Source: Mesorhizobium metallidurans STM 2683 (GTDB taxonomy: Bacteria; Pseudomonadota; Alphaproteobacteria; Rhizobiales; Rhizobiaceae). From it: a DNA stretch of 64,000 nucleotides. Below are positions 10,005-40,931 of this stretch, piece after piece. The notes beneath the pieces were generated by a model. The model worked only from the letters and a program-made list of their open reading frames with translations, was not told the DNA's origin and did no database searches. Location: the NCBI RefSeq assembly GCF_000350085.1, contig NZ_CAUM01000134.1:1-64000 (forward strand), in the 5' to 3' direction. Position 1 is the stretch's first letter. Every line of letters begins with the position of its first letter. A program made the position numbers and the translations under genes.

Positions 10005-11645
10005 TCAGTTGGCCTGGCGGCGCAGGAATGCCGGAATCTCCAGCTGATCGTCTTCCTGCATGGTCCTGGCCTGCGGCGTCAGCCGGCCCTGATCGTCCAA
10101 CTGGCCGCGGCGCGGCGCGTAAAGCTGCGGATCCTGGCTGGCAAGGCGACGCACCTCTGGGGCCGCCTGGCGCAGCTTCGGTTCACGCGGCAGTGCCGGC
10201 TGCAGCCGTGCGGGTTCCTCTTCGCGGCGGGTCAGACCGCTTGTCAGGCGCTTGATCAGCCCCATCGGCCCGCTGTTTTCATGATCGGCCGGACGGCTCT
10301 TGGCTTCCACCTCAGCCTTCACCACAGGCGGGAAATCCTCGACGCGCGGCATGCGCTGGGGTGCGGCGGCCACCGGCTGAAGCACTTCACGCTGCGGCAT
10401 CGCCTGCTGGACCACCGGCTGCGGCTGGGCAGGCGGCGCCTGGAAGATCTTGCTCTGCGGGCGGAAGTCTTCCGCCTGGGCAACCGGTGCGGGACGCGCC
10501 ATCGCCGCGGCGTTGGCCTCGGCAAGCTGGATCGCCTCGGCAACCGGGTCGGCCGCGCGTGGCTCATAGACGTTCTGGACAGGCGCCGGACGGCTTTCCG
10601 CGACCGGGACCGCCGGGCGGTTAACCGGCTTTGGCGGCGCCGCGCGGATGGCGATTGGCGCGGCGGCGATTTCAGCCGCCGATTTGTCGATGCCGGTGGC
10701 GACCACCGAGACGCGGATGACGCCTTCGAGATCCTCGTCGAACGTCGCGCCGAGGATGATGTTGGCGTCCTGGTCGACCTCCTCGCGGATGCGGGTAGCC
10801 GCCTCGTCGACTTCGAACAGGGTGAGGTCACGACCGCCGGTGATCGAGATCAGCAGACCTTTGGCGCCCTTCATCGAGGTCTCGTCGAGCAGCGGGTTGG
10901 CGATCGCGGCTTCGGCGGCGGCCATGGCGCGTCCCTCGCCCGAGGCCTCGCCCGTGCCCATCATTGCCTTGCCCATTTCGCGCATCACCGAGCGGACGTC
11001 GGCGAAGTCGAGATTGATCAGGCCTTCCTTGACCATCAGGTCGGTGATGCAGGCGACACCCGAATAGAGCACCTGGTCGGCCATGGCGAAGGCGTCGGCG
11101 AAGGTCGTCTTGTCATTGGCCAGCCGGAACAGGTTCTGGTTGGGGATGACGATCAGGGTGTCGACGCATTTCTGCAATTCCTCGATGCCGAAATCCGCCG
11201 TCTTCATGCGGCGCTGGCCTTCGAAATGGAACGGCTTGGTGACGACGCCCACCGTGAGGATGCCCTTTTCACGGGCAGCCCGCGCGACAACCGGAGCCGC
11301 TCCCGTGCCGGTGCCGCCGCCCATGCCGGCCGTGACGAAGCACATATGGGTGTTCGACAGATGATCGATGATCTCGTCGATGCATTCTTCCGCCGCCGCG
11401 CGGCCGACTTCCGGCTGCGATCCCGCGCCCAGACCTTCGGTCACATGCGCGCCGAGCTGGATCAACCGCTCCGCCTTGGACATGGTCAGCGCCTGTGCGT
11501 CGGTGTTGGCCACGACGAACTCGACACCGCGCAAGCCCGCGGTGATCATGTTGTTGACAGCATTGCCGCCGCCACCGCCGACACCGAACACGGTGATCCG
11601 CGGCTTGAGCTCGGTGATGTCCGGCTTTTGCAGATTGATGGTCAT
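10005..11645 (-). CDS. ftsZ: Cell division protein FtsZ
   Basis: A 546-aa tubulin homologue forming the cytokinetic ring. The GTP-binding signature GGGTGTG is at residues 109-115, and the N-terminal [13 protein letters not shown] block is present. The globular domain ends near residue 320. A long Pro/Ala/Gln-rich intrinsically disordered linker (about 200 residues) follows, as in other alphaproteobacteria. It ends with the conserved C-terminal peptide [12 protein letters not shown], which binds FtsA and other partners. GGAGACA precedes the ATG. It lies 66 bp after ftsA. Confidence 0.98.
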
Positions 11646-11711: not shown

Positions 11712-13019
11712 TTAGAAACTGTCTCTCAACCACTGACTCATTCGATGCAGTTTTCCGCCCGTTCCGGTCATTCTCAGACCGGAAATGCCTTTCGCCGGAT
11801 GGCTCTCGAAGCTCGCCATCTGCGGGTAGATCAAAAGCCCGACCGGCGTCGAGAAAGCCGGTCCCTTGGCCGCCTCCGGCAGGCCCGCCACGCCGAGCGG
11901 CCGGCCGATGCGCACATTGCGTCCGAGAATCCGGCGCGCCGCCTCCGGCAGGCCGGAAAGCTGGCTGGCGCCGCCTGTCAGCACCACGCGCTTGCCGACG
12001 GCATTGCCGTAGCCGGACTTGTTCAGCCGGTCGCGCAACAGTTCGAGCGTCTCGTCGATGCGCGCGCGGATGATGCGCGTCATCACCGAACGCGGTATCT
12101 GCAACGGCACCTCGCCTTCCTCGCCGATCGGCTGGATCGACACCAGGTCGCGGTCGTCGGCGCTGCCGGGCAGCGCGGAGCCATGCATCACCTTCAGCCT
12201 CTCGGCGGCGTCGAGCGAGGTCGACAGGCCCTTGGCCATGTCCAGCGTGACGTGGTTGCCGCCGATGGCGATGGCGTCGCCATGCACGAACTTGCCTTCC
12301 GAAAACACCGAGATCGTCGTCGTGCCGCCGCCCATGTCGATGCAGGCAGCGCCCATTTCGAGTTCGTCGTCGACCAGTGCGGCCAGCCCGCTGGCATAGG
12401 GCGTCGCCACCATGCGCTCGACCGACAGATGCGAGCGGTTGATGCAGAGCTCCAGGTTGCGCAACGGAGCAGCGTCGCCCGTCAGCACATGCATGTCGAC
12501 GCCGAGCCGATCGCCGACCATGCCGCGCGGATCGCGCACCCCGCGCTCGCCGTCCAGCGAAAATCCGACGGGAAGCGAATGGATCACCTCCCGCTCGGCC
12601 CGGAGCGCCTGTTTGGCGCCGGCGGCAAGCACGCGCTTGATGTCGGCCTCGTCGGCCTCATGGCCGCCAAGGTTGATGGTGGCCGAGAATGTCTCGCTCT
12701 TCAGCCGGCCGGCCGTCATGTTGACGATCAGCGAATCCACCGTCAGGCCGGCCATGCGCTCGGCGGCGTCGACGGCAAGGCGGATGGCGTGCTCGGCCCT
12801 GTCGAGATCGATGACGACGCCCGATTTCACGCCTTGCGACTTCTGATGGCCGATGCCGATCACCTGGATGCGATGCGAGCGCCCGCGCAACAGCTTGCCG
12901 TCCTCGCGCGGCTTGAGCTTCGCCACCACGCAGCACACCTTGCTCGAGCCGACATCCAGCACCGTCATGGTGCCGGACCGGCGCGACGAGGCATCGCTGT
13001 TGCCGCCAAGCCAGCTCAT
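11712..13019 (-). CDS. ftsA: Cell division protein FtsA
   Basis: A 435-aa actin-like ATPase that tethers FtsZ to the membrane. The N-terminal phosphate-1 motif is VLDVGSSKVCCVVA. The 1C domain follows, then CIDMGGGTTTISVF (phosphate-2) and VVLTGGASQLSGL (adenosine motif). The C-terminus, ending MSQWLRDSF, is an amphipathic membrane-targeting helix. Its start overlaps the ftsQ stop by 4 bp. Confidence 0.97.
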   Translation of the reverse strand: MSWLGGNSDASSRRSGTMTVLDVGSSKVCCVVAKLKPREDGKLLRGRSHRIQVIGIGHQKSQGVKSGVVIDLDRAEHAIRLAVDAAERMAGLTVDSLIVNMTAGRLKSETFSATINLGGHEADEADIKRVLAAGAKQALRAEREVIHSLPVGFSLDGERGVRDPRGMVGDRLGVDMHVLTGDAAPLRNLELCINRSHLSVERMVATPYASGLAALVDDELEMGAACIDMGGGTTTISVFSEGKFVHGDAIAIGGNHVTLDMAKGLSTSLDAAERLKVMHGSALPGSADDRDLVSIQPIGEEGEVPLQIPRSVMTRIIRARIDETLELLRDRLNKSGYGNAVGKRVVLTGGASQLSGLPEAARRILGRNVRIGRPLGVAGLPEAAKGPAFSTPVGLLIYPQMASFESHPAKGISGLRMTGTGGKLHRMSQWLRDSF

Positions 13020-13957
13020 ATCTTCGTCTCCGGCTTGCGCTTCAGTATTTTAGGCTTTTCGTTGAGCGCGGCCTCGCGCTGCGTCGCCGCTTCCGGCGTC
13101 AGCTGGACGACGAGACGATCGGAAAGGCGCATGTCGACGGCGGCGATGTCGCGCGTCAAAAGCCCGTTCTCATAATCCATCCTGACCAGGTCGGCGATCG
13201 CCTGATCCTCGCCATCCTCGGGAAGCTTGACGGTGATGCCGTTTTCCAGCTTCAGGTCCCAGCGCCGTTCGCCGATGCGGATATAGCCTTTGATCCGCGC
13301 GGCAAGCTCCGGATATTTCTTGATCCTGGAGATGAAATCGGGCGCTTTGGCCGGCGCTCCGGCGCCGACGATCAGCGGCAGCAATGCCTGCTTGCCGCCG
13401 GAGAACGGCGCGATCACATTGCCGGACTTCTCGATGACGGAAAGCTCGCTGCCTTGCTGCCAGAGCGCGAAGGGCTCGCGCTCCTCGACGCGCACCTCCA
13501 GCGTGTGCGGATAGACCTTGCGCACCGCCGCGACCTCGATCCACGGCAGCGTGGCAATGCGCTCCCGCGCGGCCTCGGCGTCGAACCCGATCAGCGAAGT
13601 CCAGCCGTCAAGCTCCAGCCCCTCGAGAATATCGATCTCGGAGGTTTCGCGATTGCCGACCACCTTGATCTGGTCGACGGCAAAGCCGGTGCGGGCAGTG
13701 ATGCTCTGGACGATGCTGTCGACATGTCCGCCGAGATAGGCGCCATAGGCGCCACTCGACGCCAGAAGCACCGCCGACAGGATTGCGGCGGAGAAAGGCG
13801 GCGCCTCAAAGTCACCCTCGCCCAGGCGCGCCAAAACGCGCACCGGCCGGCGAAGCAGGCGCGGCAATACGAAATGGTCGAACGACAACGGCATGCCGAA
13901 CAGCGTCGGCCCGGCCGCGCCCCTCTCCTTGCCCTGTCCCCACCTCAACGCAAACAC
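13016..13957 (-). CDS. ftsQ: Cell division protein FtsQ
   Basis: A 313-aa bitopic divisome protein. The cytoplasmic N-terminus is followed by one membrane segment ([22 protein letters not shown]). Next come a POTRA domain ([22 protein letters not shown]) and the FtsQ beta domain. The GTG at 13955-13957 is chosen because GGAGG sits 7 nt upstream, inside the end of ddl; this gives a 13-bp overlap with ddl. An in-frame ATG at 13978 and another at 13894 are alternatives. Confidence 0.94.
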
Positions 13958-14871
13958 GAAGCGTCCTCCACCATCCAACTCAACAAATCGCCGAACGAGT
14001 GTCCCGCTTGCGCGGCGATTTCGGGCACCAAGGATGTCGGCGTCATGCCAGGCTGAGTGTTGATCTCGAGCCAGACAATTTCGCCGTTTTCGGAGTGACG
14101 ATCGTCATAGCGGAAGTCCGACCGGGAAACGCCCCGGCAACCGACAGCTTGGTGAGCCTTGAGCGCCAGTGTCTGTATTTTTTGGTAAATATTCGGTGAA
14201 ATTTTTGCCGGGCATTCGTGTTTTGATCCGCCCGCGACGTATTTTGAATCATAGTCGTAGAAGGAATGGCCGGTCGGTATGACCTCACAGACGCCGAGCG
14301 CGACATCGCCCATCACCGCGCAGGTCAGCTCGCGGCCGTGAATGTAGCGCTCCACCATGACGGTATCGCCATATTTCCAGTCGGACGAGCCGATGACCTG
14401 CGGCGGATGCGACTGACCCTCATGCACGATGACGACGCCGAAGCTCGACCCTTCGCTGACCGGCTTGACCACATAGGGCGGCTTCATCGGATGCTTGTTC
14501 TGGATGGCGAAGCGATCGGTCACCTTCGATTCCGCCACCGGAATGCCGGAAGCCTTGGCGATCTTCTTGGCCTGCTCCTTGTTCATGGCCAGCGCCGAAG
14601 CCAGCACGCCGGAATGTGTATAGGCGATCCCCAGATATTCAAGGATGCCCTGGATGGTGCCGTCCTCGCCGAATGGGCCATGCAGCGCATTGAAGGCGAC
14701 GTCGGGCTTGAGTTCACCCAGCACCGATCCGACATCGCGCGAGACATCGACGCGAGTGACCCGGTAGCCTTCATTCTCGAGCGCATCGGCACACGCTTTC
14801 CCCGAGGACAGAGACACGGGCCGCTCGGACGAGAATCCCCCCAGCAGAACGGCCACATGCTTGCTTTTCAT
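13945..14871 (-). CDS. ddl: D-alanine--D-alanine ligase
   Basis: A 308-aa ATP-grasp enzyme making D-Ala-D-Ala for peptidoglycan. Visible motifs are [16 protein letters not shown], the Gly-rich loop EGSSFGV, and the C-terminal [18 protein letters not shown] metal-binding block. It starts with [12 protein letters not shown] and is the first gene after a 322-bp gap, so it likely heads a ddl-ftsQAZ transcription unit. Bases about 14160-14260 (residues around [10 protein letters not shown]) are clearly less GC-rich than the neighbours, with AAA and ATT codons. Confidence 0.97.
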
Positions 14872-15194
14872 TTCCCGTCATCCCCTCTCACGGCGGGCCG
14901 GCAACTCTCGATCAGAGCGGTCCTTGCTCTCACGATTTCCGCGACCTTGAGTCCGAGTCTCCCGGCAGGTTGCCCCCCAGACGGAAAACGCGGGAACGCG
15001 TCGAACGACTCAAATCAGGAAACGCTTTCAGGCAGAGAATCAGAGAGTTGATTCACTGGCAAGTCCTTACGATTCCGAGAGATTCACTTTCCGTAAAAAC
15101 GGCCATAAAAATTGCGTTGTGAGTCTTTGGCGCAACGGTCGCGCGGTGATTCACATCGTTTGAAGTTCAAGCATTACATGAACATCAGATCGCG
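14872..15194 (-). promoter_or_regulatory. ddl-ftsQAZ upstream region with nine GANTC sites
   Basis: This is a gene-free 322-bp gap. GANTC pentamers (the CcrM methylation target in alphaproteobacteria) occur at 14949, 14955, 15007, 15037, 15050, 15071, 15081, 15121 and 15148. That is nine in 204 bp, against about 0.7 expected by base composition. Two of them form the inverted pair GAATCA/TGATTC (15037-15054). CcrM/GcrA methylation-dependent control of ftsZ-type promoters is known in Caulobacter; its use here is inferred from the sites only. Confidence 0.7.
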
Positions 15195-16160
15195 CTAAAG
15201 CAATTGCCCGAGAAACTCCTGCACCGCATGCCCCGGCCGGAACTCGCCGACGCGCTTGATTTCCCATTGTAGCCGGATTCCTGAATTCTCGAGCACGCGC
15301 GTGCGCACCGTCTCGCCGAGATATTCGAGGTCGTAGCCGGTCGCGGTTCCGGTGTTGATCATGAAGTTGCAATGCATTGGCGACATCTGCGCGCCGCCGA
15401 TCATCAGCCCCCGGCACCCCGCCTTGTCGATCTCCTTCCAGGCCGAGGTGCCTTCAGGATTCTTGAAGGTCGAGCCGCCGGTCTTTTCCCGGATCGGCTG
15501 CACTGTCTCGCGATGATGCTGGACGGCATCCATCGCCGCCTTGATCGTGGCCTTGTCTTCCAGCGCGCCTTCGAACAAGGCCGAGGTGAAGATCAGCCCG
15601 GAAGGTGCTGCCGAATGGCGATAGGCGTAGCCCATGTCGGCATTGCTCAGCGTATGCGCATTGCCTTTGCGGTCGAGCGCCCGCACCTCGACGACGCGCT
15701 CGCGCGTCTCGACGCCATTGGCGCCGGCGTTCATCCGCAGCGCCCCGCCGATGGCGCCTGGAATGCCGTGGTAGAAATGGAATCCGCCGATGCCCGCCTC
15801 GTAGGCCGCTGCGGCAAGGCGCTTGTCGGGCGTGGCGGCGCCCGCCTTGATCCTCGTCGGGCCGATCGTCTCGGCCTCGCCAAAACCCTTGGCCGAAAGC
15901 CGGATGACGAAGCCCGCCACGCCGCCATCACGCACCAGAAGGTTCGAGCCGACACCGACGATGGTCAGCGGGATCTCTTCGGGAACCGCCTTCAGGAACG
16001 CGGCGAGATCTTCCTCGTCCGCCGGCTGGAACAGCGCGTCGGCAAGCCCGCCGGCGCGGAACCAGGTGATCTTGTCCATCTCGGCATTGGGCGTGATGCG
16101 GCCGCGCAGGCCGGCAAGCCGGTCGCCAAGCTTGTCGATCAATGCCTGGCCGCGCATCAT
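15195..16160 (-). CDS. murB: UDP-N-acetylmuramate dehydrogenase MurB
   Basis: A 321-aa FAD enzyme reducing enolpyruvyl-UDP-GlcNAc to UDP-MurNAc. The motifs [32 protein letters not shown] and the catalytic Ser region GSTFKNPEG are visible; it is a type I MurB. The ATG at 16158-16160 overlaps the murC stop by 4 bp (ATGA) and fits the conserved N-terminus, although the frame is open to 16202. The next gene, ddl, follows after 322 bp. Confidence 0.97.
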
Positions 16161-17566
16161 GACACGCTTCCGCCGAGTTCCCTGGGCAGCGCATAGGCCC
16201 ATTGGGTGATGTTGCCGGCGCCGAGGAAGATGACGAAATCGCCTGGTTTGGCCAGATCGCGGATAACCGGCGCGATTGCCGCCGGGCCTTCGATGTAGCG
16301 GGCGTCGCGATGGCCGCCGGCGCGGATGCGCGACACCAGCGCATCCGATGTCACCCCGTCGATCGGCTCTTCGCCCGCCGCGTAGACCGGCGCCACCATC
16401 ACGGTGTCGGCGTCGTTGAAGCAGGCGGAAAACTCGTTGAACAGATCATGCAGCCGGGTGTAGCGATGCGGCTGGGCAATGGCGATGACGCGGCCCTTGG
16501 TGGCGCTGCGCGCCGCCTTCAGCACCGCCGAGATCTCGACCGGATGGTGGCCGTAATCGTCGTAGACGTCGACGCCGTTCCACGAGCCGGTATGGGTGAA
16601 GCGGCGCTTGACGCCGGCGAAGGACGACAGGCCCTTCTTGATCGCCTCCGCGGAAAGGCCAAGCTCATGCGCCACGGCAATCGCCGCCGTCGCATTGGAG
16701 ACGTTGTGGCGGCCAGGCATCGGCAGGCGCAGGTCTGATATCGTCGTCTGGCCGCGCGTCTTGCGGTCGCGGATCACCACGTCGAACTCCGAGGTCGCAC
16801 CCGCCATGCGGTGGTTGGTGAAGCGCACATCGGCCTGCGCATTCTCGCCATAGGTGATGACGCGCCGGTCCTCGATGCGGCCGACCAGCGCCTGCACTTC
16901 CGGATGGTCGGTGCACATCACGCCGAAGCCGTAGAACGGCACGTTCTCGACGAACTGGCGGAACGCCTCGCGCACATTGTCGAACGAGCCGTAATGGTCG
17001 AGATGCTCGGGATCGATGTTGGTGACGACGGCGATGTCGGCCGGCAGCTTCAGGAAGGTGCCGTCGCTCTCGTCGGCCTCGACCACCATCCATTCGCCAT
17101 CGCCCATGCGGGCGTTGGTGCCATACGCATTGATGATGCCGCCGTTGATGACGGTCGGATCGAGCCCGCCTGCTTCGAGCAGCGTCGCCACCATCGAGGT
17201 CGTGGTCGTCTTGCCATGCGTGCCGCCGATCGCCACCGCCTGGCGGAAGCGCATCAATTCGGCCAGCATTTCCGCGCGCCGCACGATGGGCAGCAGCTTT
17301 TCGCGCGCGGCCTTCAGTTCCGGATTGGATTTCTTGATCGCGGTCGAGACGACGATCACCTCGGCGTCGCCGATATTGTCGGCCTGATGGCCGACGAAGC
17401 ATTCGATGCCCTTGTCGCGCAGCCGGTGCACATTGGCGCTGTCGGCCTGGTCTGACCCCTGCACCTTATAGCCGAGATTGTGCAGCACCTCGGCGATGCC
17501 GCTCATGCCGATACCGCCAATGCCGATGAAATGCACAAGGCCGATCGTCTGCGGCATCTTCATCAA
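16157..17566 (-). CDS. murC: UDP-N-acetylmuramate--L-alanine ligase MurC
   Basis: A 469-aa Mur ligase adding L-Ala to UDP-MurNAc in the cytoplasm. The N-terminal Rossmann motif is [14 protein letters not shown] and the ATP loop is [11 protein letters not shown]. The central-domain motif is [13 protein letters not shown] and the C-terminal domain has DDYGHHPVE. Length is normal. It overlaps murG by 4 bp upstream and murB by 4 bp downstream. Confidence 0.98.
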
Positions 17567-39943: not shown

Positions 39944-40626
39944 GCACGAGCGAGCTGCCGGCCAGGCACGGCGAACCGCCGGCCGGGCATGCCGAACTGA
40001 TGGACGGCGTCTATCGCTGGCAGCGCCATTTCTACGACCTGACCCGCAAATATTACCTGCTCGGCCGCGACCGGCTGATATCGGGGCTGGACGTGCCGGC
40101 CGGCGGCACCGTGCTCGAACTCGGCTGCGGCACCGGCCGCAACATCGTGCTTGCCGCCCGCCGCTATCCCGGCGCCCGTTTCTTCGGCCTCGATATTTCG
40201 GCCGAAATGCTGGAGACGGCCAACGCCGCCATGGATCGCGAAGGCCTGTCCGGCCATGTCACGCTGGCGCGCGGCGACGCCACGGATTTCGATGCGGAGG
40301 CGCTGTTCGGCCTGGCTACCTTCGACCGCATCTTCGTGTCCTATTCGCTGTCGATGATCCCCGGCTGGGAAAAGACTGTGGCGGCCGCACTTGCCGCCCT
40401 TTCGCCAGACGGCTCGCTGCACGTCGTCGATTTCGGCCAGCAGGAAGCCCTGCCCCGCTGGTTCCGCACGCTGCTGCGCGGCTGGCTGAGAAAATTCCAT
40501 GTCGAGCCGCGTGAAGCGTTGCGCGATGTCCTGGAATCGGAATCCGCAAGAGTCGGCGCAAGCCTTCGATTCAGAACGCTTTATCGCGGCTACACCTGGT
40601 TGGCGGTCGTCAAGATCGCCATCTAG
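39940..40626 (+). CDS. btaB: Diacylglyceryl-homoserine N-methyltransferase BtaB
   Basis: A 228-aa SAM methyltransferase. Motif I is VLELGCGTGRN (residues 58-68), with FGLDISAEML and FDRIFVSYSLSMIPGW following. It trimethylates diacylglyceryl-homoserine to the betaine lipid DGTS. The ATG overlaps the btaA stop (ATGA), so both are made from one mRNA. It completes the pathway with btaA, which lets the cell replace phospholipids under phosphate starvation. Confidence 0.93.
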   Translation: MSTSELPARHGEPPAGHAELMDGVYRWQRHFYDLTRKYYLLGRDRLISGLDVPAGGTVLELGCGTGRNIVLAARRYPGARFFGLDISAEMLETANAAMDREGLSGHVTLARGDATDFDAEALFGLATFDRIFVSYSLSMIPGWEKTVAAALAALSPDGSLHVVDFGQQEALPRWFRTLLRGWLRKFHVEPREALRDVLESESARVGASLRFRTLYRGYTWLAVVKIAI

Positions 40627-40931
40627 GCTGCGGACTCATAAAAGCGAAGCGACGATCTGATGACCGCCAAGGCCATGCTCGACAAGAGGCCGCCGCTGGC
40701 ACTTTCATCGGTATGATGGGCTTTGGCGCCAGCGGTCCGGCGGAGAAACTCTACGAACATTTCAATATGCCGCAAAGGCGGTAGTGAAGGCAGCTCGGAG
40801 GCAACGCCTCGCGCACGCGAGGACAATCGCTAGCGCCGAATGTCGGAATTGGGCGCCAGCTCGGCGCATTTCATGGCGCCTCCCGCACGCCCAGGCATGA
40901 AGCTGTCCTTGTTGACTCAAGGAGAATTTGC
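40627..40931. other. Gene-free stretch, no recognisable feature
   Basis: These 305 bp between btaB and the GFA-family gene hold no convincing gene, RNA or terminator. The only sizeable open frame (67 codons on the minus strand, 40623-40826) has no recognisable family and no good ribosome site. Degraded mobile DNA is possible but not shown. Confidence 0.4.

Follow-up and report, generated by a model that had tools for sequence, protein, structure and literature searches.

A rare and conserved cluster of GANTC sites upstream of ddl-ftsQAZ in Mesorhizobium metallidurans contains a candidate methylation-responsive promoter

The 323-bp gap between murB and ddl in Mesorhizobium metallidurans STM 2683 holds a cluster of nine GANTC sites which is real, rare in the sampled part of the genome and conserved among relatives. 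The cluster probably contains, judging from its anatomy, a CcrM/GcrA-dependent sigma-70 promoter of the ddl-ftsQ-ftsA-ftsZ unit. The strongest signal is a two-site, promoter-like core inside the cluster, which resembles putative ftsB promoters of other Alphaproteobacteria.

The window, by which we mean the whole 64,000-nt stretch that was analysed (positions 1 to 64,000 of contig NZ_CAUM01000134.1), carries on its minus strand, according to its ORF list, murC-murB, the gap, ddl, ftsQ, ftsA and ftsZ in this order. The gap (14872-15194; delimited from the ORFs, Pfam matches for ddl, ftsQ and murB, and the site list) is preceded by murB (15195-16202, ORF as listed; PF02873, PF01565) and followed by ddl, the D-alanine-D-alanine ligase gene that comes first in the unit (13945-14871; PF07478, PF01820). 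Next come ftsQ, overlapping the end of ddl (13016-13978; PF08478, PF03799), ftsA, overlapping the end of ftsQ (11712-13019; ORF and gene order), and ftsZ, 66 bp past ftsA (10005-11645; ORF); we take the names ftsA, ftsZ and murC to apply from sequence and gene order. These features and the sites described below are read on the minus strand unless stated otherwise. The nine GANTC that the first-pass annotation had counted between 14949 and 15152 are all in the site list, at 14949, 14955, 15007, 15037, 15050, 15071, 15081, 15121 and 15148, and since every one of them lies inside the gap, with both flanking genes on the minus strand, the cluster does precede ddl-ftsQAZ. One more GANTC is found at 11735, 90 bp upstream of the ftsZ start, and reads TGAGTCA on the minus strand. 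A repeated element or paralogous copy is ruled out, a genome search with E up to 0.1 having matched the gap region to itself alone, and a search for a known structured RNA leader gave no Rfam match up to E 1 in 14600-15500.

For the 204 bp occupied by the cluster, base composition predicts 0.76 GANTC, in agreement with the earlier estimate of about 0.7. Dinucleotide shuffles of the same 204 bp yielded a mean of 1.40 sites and a maximum of 6, nine being reached in none of 5000, while shuffles of the whole 323-bp gap yielded a mean of 2.56, with at least nine sites in one of 5000. The motif is sparse elsewhere, as had been supposed: 95 copies are present in the window against 328 expected, and the density is 1.42 per kb over 959,451 bp of genome, a sample composed of 895,451 bp in stretches plus the window, which amounts to 15.4% of the genome and includes 10,368 bases N. 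Ranked by GANTC density over this sample, the nine-site stretch is the densest 204-bp interval, followed by one with five GANTC, at 40534-40637 of the window, and by fourteen others with four each. The five sites of the second interval, packed into 104 bp, lie at the 3′ end of what we take to be a methyltransferase-like frame, after a presumably DUF3419-like one. One of these fourteen stands just before gcrA (contig 186, 15325-15471, with the gcrA match at 15506), an arrangement that may be compared with the Agrobacterium tumefaciens gcrA promoter discussed below.

The core has the form CTTGYCA-NN-GANTC-N6-CTGATTC, that is, a TTG at the putative -35, a 17-nt spacer holding one GANTC (site A), and a putative -10 overlapped by GATTC (site B); all positions relative to +1 are predicted, the start having been calibrated on the ftsB start codon. 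The predicted -35, TTGCCA, occupies 15057-15062, and [CG]TTG stands exactly 20 nt before [CT]TGATTC in 94 of 104 loci. Site A, GAATC, at 15050-15054 (about -27 to -23), falls between the predicted -35 and -10, as counted from the predicted start, and site B is located at 15037-15041 (about -14 to -10). The predicted -10, TTCTCT, at 15034-15039, belongs to a class TTCNNT after TGA, with 17-nt spacing and T in the last position. Transcription is predicted to start at an A at 15027, leaving a 156-nt leader; a purine occupies this place in 72 of 79 core loci, and the median leader in 79 ddl loci is 132 nt. A standard promoter melts from an A at -11, and the ddl core carries T, not A, at its predicted -11. 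A consensus scan of 14800-15300 for an ordinary sigma-70 promoter (TTGACA-N16-18-TATAAT, A at -11) found none.

Around the core, site C (TGAGTCG, 15007-15011, about +17 to +21) matches YGAKTCG, and two GANTC 6 bp apart lie in the predicted leader at about +69 and +75 (14949-14959; site list and genus alignment). Upstream, a pair of sites 10 bp apart, at 15081-15085 (about -58) and 15071-15075 (about -48), appears in the genus or anchored alignment; the genus retains the site at 15121-15125 (about -98, minus-strand GACTC), and at 15148-15152 (about -125) few relatives have GANTC. The extended motif YGAKTCK is present on the minus strand at 15042 and 15012 and on the plus strand at 14954 and 15120, both site B (TGATTCT) and site C conforming to it. 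A short inverted pair, to which the first-pass annotation had drawn attention, exists (GAATCA, 6 nt, TGATTC; minus strand, 15054-15037) and forms the heart of the conserved element, but it means little in itself as an inversion, because any GAATC/GATTC pair is inverted. The predicted leader (14872-15027) is conserved in the genus and may fold, its genus-wide fold having a z of -6.1 against column shuffles, a crude control; both partners vary in 4 of its 24 pairs.

The sites of the core differ in how freely they vary. At site A, 81 anchored ddl loci have GAATC in 69 cases, GATTC in 3, GAGTC in 3, GACTC in 1 and no GANTC in 5, so that all four middle bases occur among the 76 GANTC-bearing loci. 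At site B, ATTC follows TCTG in 81 of 81 loci, and when CTTG[CT]CA-N13 is used as the anchor, with site B not required, the next seven letters are CTGATTC in 77 of 81 and TTGATTC in one. TGATTT precedes site C in 70 loci, and in 69 of them the site reads GA[GT]TCG. These states, with a free middle base at A, and G or T followed by G downstream, fit what recognition by CcrM and GcrA would be expected to leave in the sequence.

Alignment with related Mesorhizobium bore out the conservation of the cluster. The genus set comprised 37 genomes, our own included, of which one (G007) gave no full-length ddl; the remaining 36 loci hold 5-10 GANTC, mostly in register, as counted in the gap or, for the 3 loci in which murB was out of view, in 255-600 nt. 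Distances from ddl such as 232, 191, 181, 160, 147, 117, 64 and 58 recur, and the sites sit within stretches that hardly vary. In the 250 nt immediately before ddl of these 36 loci, GANTC shows the highest enrichment of the 16 palindromes of the form NNxNN, 8.2-fold, with TCNGA next at 3.6-fold. All such conservation counts are to be read as descriptive, because loci from one genus do not count as independent observations.

A ddl gene was recovered from 150 of the 151 family genomes. For 68 family loci, a non-random set made up of 28 of the best matches and 40 picked by hand from the list, the last 250 nt before ddl contain a mean of 4.9 GANTC, 5.8-fold over expectation, and four loci contain none; sites beyond the two-site core are the more variable ones among relatives. 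Altogether, 104 ddl loci could be divided into 83 of type M (core and full -35 region), 11 of type R and 10 without a recognised core, the TTG and TGATTC in these types being fixed by construction, as the anchor demands them. Some of the ten coreless loci may owe their status to misplaced ddl starts, and in about ten distant family loci with a non-ATG ddl start the distances are approximate; L085 is represented by 73 nt. Type R keeps TTG and AACTCTCTGATTC and has no spacer site; in several such loci (L093, L097, L098, L105 and others) we noticed GAATC near the predicted start and TTGATTCG downstream, with AACTCTCTGATTC kept. Outside the genus, the last position of the predicted -10 (-7) is T in 41 of 47 type M ddl loci, and the predicted start is A in 30 of the 47; in type R, 7 of 11 loci have A rather than T at -7.

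The exact core pattern, CTTGYCANNGANTCNNNNNNCTGATTC, occurs in 54 of the 151 family genomes, once in each, and is lacking in 97, while its reversed form, used as a control, occurs in none. In 53 of the 54 genomes it lies 69-245 bp upstream of ddl on the appropriate strand, and in the remaining one ddl is on another contig. In the genome of M. metallidurans itself, a general promoter class was considered and rejected, as the layout with TGATTC occurs once in the 959-kb sample, at the ddl gap; with any GANTC allowed as the second site there are three occurrences.

Elsewhere in the order, 13 of 24 genomes from other families were inspected, with at most one GANTC in the 400 bp ahead of ddl in each, and in a search of 249 genomes of the order those outside the family gave only core matches with 2-3 mismatches, of the kind also given by a shifted control pattern; on these results an older origin of the element in the order was rejected. 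Another 12 genomes of the class gave matches with 1-2 mismatches, 10 of them inside frames of at least 158 codons and 2 outside. A scan of a named species collection for CTTGYCANNGANTCNNNNNTCTGATTC yielded at least 81 matches in 80 loci, and among the matches listed 73 of 81 are within 500 bp upstream of ddl and 2 lie behind murB with ddl cut off. Two of the 73 come from a single contig of a Sphingomonadaceae MAG (L184) with a Rhizobiaceae-like murB-ddl-ftsQ arrangement, on which the core occurs twice, the copies separated by a run of N; this contig is probably misbinned or misassembled.

The remaining 6 of the 81 matches listed are located upstream of ftsB in Sphingomonadales (Sphingomonadaceae, Sphingopyxis, Parasphingorhabdus and Sphingomonadales records), 9-11 nt ahead of the start ATG of a short gene, which in the one of the six tested belongs by Pfam to DivIC, the FtsB family; the gene before these matches is presumably enolase-like. 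We surveyed ftsB in 385 genomes of the class, 264 of which had a match, and examined 49 loci from 33 families, consisting of 29 loci from the 30 best matches (L334 yielded none) and a further 20 chosen from lower in the list of 264. In 35 of the 49, representing 23 families, a GANTC begins 12-16 nt ahead of a start codon. The layout is seen in 21 of the 29 best-match loci, compared with a mean of 0.54 and at most 4 in shuffles, and in 14 of the 20 further down the list if any in-frame start is accepted (13 of 20 with the nearest start only). Within these 35 putative promoters, the downstream site reads TGATTC in 31, T occupies the predicted -7 in 31, and TTG[AC]C precedes the G of site B by 21-22 nt in 30; 25 have a second GANTC in the spacer, with A as the middle base in 18, C in 3, G in 2 and T in 2.

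The ddl and ftsB sequences have in common a -35 TTG, TGATTCNNT and a 17-nt (or 18-nt) spacer, so that the likeness extends over TTG[AC]C, the spacer GANTC and TGATTC-NN-T, with spacing within a base. The two differ in the distance from site A to site B, mostly 11-12 at ftsB and 13 at ddl, and in that the ftsB start codon follows 12-16 nt after the G of site B, whereas the ddl loci have a leader instead. The spacing of TTG[AC]C and the nearness of the start codon at ftsB imply that site B should sit at the -10, and, with the -10 taken as TTCNNT, the ftsB message would begin on its start codon or right beside it.

The analogy is drawn from other families, because the layout was not seen, on inspection by eye, at ftsB in 50 loci of the genus and order (Rhizobiales), one of which, L370, is misplaced. 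Most of these 50 loci show no GANTC or a single one over the 200 nt ahead of the match; L346, L357 and L363 have three each. About ten genus members (including L353, L354, L356-L358, L360, L363, L364 and L374) have one GANTC 9-10 nt before the ftsB start, closer than in the layout of the other families. A block like GTAACCGTCCATTAAGCACAAT, perhaps a CtrA-like site, recurs upstream of ftsB in many genus loci (L345-L374); the ftsB stretch of M. metallidurans itself (L372) reads differently there and has no such block.

The genome encodes the proteins that such sites would call for. GcrA is matched at 198 bits against a cut-off of 26.9, and a methylase which we take to be CcrM was identified by its RAMA domain and sequence. 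Of the 151 family genomes, one, 68% complete, has no CcrM-like match and the other 150 have one, and with no clear loss of CcrM the family offers no natural test through its absence. In one genome (G209, 95% complete) the match is weak (E 3e-14), and its genus mate G125 has a full one. The gap contains no exact site for CtrA (TTAA-N6/7-TTAA), DnaA (TTWTNCACA), NtrX (CAAN2-5TTG) or a MraZ-like factor, the CtrA and DnaA motifs being taken in their generally known forms; one DnaA-like site with one mismatch is present.

The nearest precedent is Caulobacter crescentus, in which ftsZ and mipZ are reported to be activated by CcrM through CGACTC, the ftsZ site lying between -35 and -10 (PMC3708114). 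The likeness consists in GANTC-dependent control of division genes; in Caulobacter, however, CGACTC lies in the gene's own promoter, whereas here nine sites precede ddl, three genes upstream of ftsZ, and one of them, unlike at Caulobacter ftsZ, overlaps the predicted -10. For Rhizobiales a CcrM-ftsZ link has been deemed improbable, because the ftsZ and mipZ promoter regions there seldom carry GANTC (PMC3708114). The A. tumefaciens ftsZ ORF is described as preceded by a single GANTC within 200 bp (PMC11514494), and cell-cycle promoters of Ensifer meliloti as not enriched in GANTC (PMC8725594). Sinorhizobium meliloti ftsZ has other control as well, because NtrX is reported to bind and raise ftsZ1 (PMC9223101).

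With GcrA-dependent methylated sigma-70 promoters (YGAKTCK) the ddl gap shares the motif, matched by sites B and C, and the presence of gcrA. The examples considered here have one or two sites, namely two juxtaposed at mipZ, -29/-28 at ctrA P1 and -24 at podJ P2 (PMC3667746, PMC4287350), and compared with them the nearly invariant GATTC over the predicted -10 at ddl is unusual. The form YGAKTCG has been tied to GcrA activation in Caulobacter, and in Brevundimonas subvibrioides the GcrA-activated genes are reported to have no preference for the extended motif (PMC7987155). The main texts of PMC3708114 and PMC11514494 do not contain the word ddl, and within the literature searched, which left subscription journals mostly outside, we found no paper joining ftsQ or ddl with GANTC, ftsB with GANTC, or a septum formation initiator with GcrA.

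On the reading we prefer, RNA polymerase would contact TTGCCA as the -35 and a poor -10, TTCNNT, which has T instead of A at -11. The spacer GANTC at -27 to -23 would occupy the region used by those Caulobacter promoters that are activated at 40-60 min. Judged by the GANTC geometry, CcrM would act on two adenines, one at -13 in the top strand and one at -11, where melting starts, in the bottom strand, and the third site, TGAGTCG at +17, would suit the motif preferred by GcrA. GcrA together with sigma-70 would then most likely bind the methylated sites and help to open the weak -10, so that the unit would fire according to the time since passage of the replication fork; the extra GANTC sites might give more GcrA docking and a steeper response to methylation state. 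We infer the transcript start, the methylation, the binding of GcrA, activation rather than repression, and the effect on FtsZ.

The first-pass annotation had proposed a methylation-timed switch linking replication to division. Methylation-timed control of ddl-ftsQAZ gains from the exceptional standing of the cluster in the sampled 15% of the genome, from its conservation in register and from the presence of both CcrM and GcrA, but the word switch is too strong, as depletion of CcrM in A. tumefaciens is reported to lower ftsZ mRNA less than 2-fold, and not significantly in complex media (PMC11514494). This small response speaks against the CcrM/GcrA reading, as do the type R and coreless loci and the lack of a match to an ordinary sigma-70 promoter in the stretch scanned. 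The A. tumefaciens lineage may itself have the type R form, in which site A is missing.

The same anatomy would also be compatible with a promoter repressed by methylation, in which full methylation, above all at the -10, keeps ddl-ftsQAZ low until hemimethylation behind the fork relieves it, a reading that we regard as unlikely, though one to be taken seriously. Its model is the A. tumefaciens gcrA promoter, with six GANTC in the 250 bp upstream, for which repression by methylation has been proposed: CcrM depletion raises gcrA 2.8-fold, and GANTC-methylating Escherichia coli cells show an effect (PMC11514494). Like the ddl gap, that promoter has its GANTC sites packed ahead of a cell-cycle gene, in a rhizobial relative; it differs in that the gene is another one and that methylation is reported to repress it (PMC11514494). 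Two more points agree with repression: gcrA of M. metallidurans is likewise preceded by its four-site cluster, and Caulobacter promoters with GANTC outside the -35 to -10 interval have their lowest levels at 40-60 min (PMC4287350). However, depletion of CcrM in A. tumefaciens lowers ftsZ slightly rather than raising it (PMC11514494), site A sits between -35 and -10, where GANTC goes with activation, at 40-60 min, in Caulobacter (PMC4287350, PMC3708114), and sites B and C match the motif of GcrA activation, though this motif is unconfirmed in B. subvibrioides (PMC7987155).

It is rather improbable that the element is a conserved promoter read by sigma-70 or by some other factor with a sequence preference that happens to spell GANTC, methylation having no role at the locus. 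Site B hardly varies, as would be expected of a fixed protein contact; its near-invariance is what a -10 contact would require. A. tumefaciens, moreover, is reported to grow in minimal medium with its genome largely unmethylated (PMC11514494). The pattern at site A argues otherwise: nine loci differ from GAATC by a single base, seven of them at the middle base and two elsewhere, in counts from which shared ancestry is not removed (three further loci differ at several bases). So does the retention of several separate GANTC beyond the core, with no other palindrome so enriched. Least probable by far is that the cluster is a set of slow-to-methylate or protein-shielded sites with a chromosomal role rather than a ddl promoter device, for although nine sites exceed what a promoter needs and MucR shields some GANTC in S. 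meliloti (PMC5172544), the core accompanies ddl in 53 of 54 genomes and has promoter spacing, the gap has no exact DnaA box, and ddl, murB and ftsZ are absent from the main text of that study.

Going beyond the locus, we would put forward, as a tentative and on balance doubtful proposal, that the ddl and ftsB sequences belong to one class of division-gene promoters common to Alphaproteobacteria, in which the -10 doubles as a CcrM site, m6A in the template strand falls at -11, and methylation and GcrA set promoter opening directly. Such a class would run ftsB in many families and would have been brought to ddl-ftsQAZ in Rhizobiaceae, a family whose ftsB seems to be without it, the link between replication and division having moved between divisome genes so as to bring FtsZ supply under CcrM control. 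In this respect, the layout common to ddl and ftsB would offer a concrete sequence definition of a methylation-sensitive -10. As regards the question of why CcrM is essential in Rhizobiales, the conserved and densely methylatable region before ddl makes a link to ftsZ testable, and for M. metallidurans and its relatives our findings suggest that DNA replication may time the expression of ddl-ftsQAZ.
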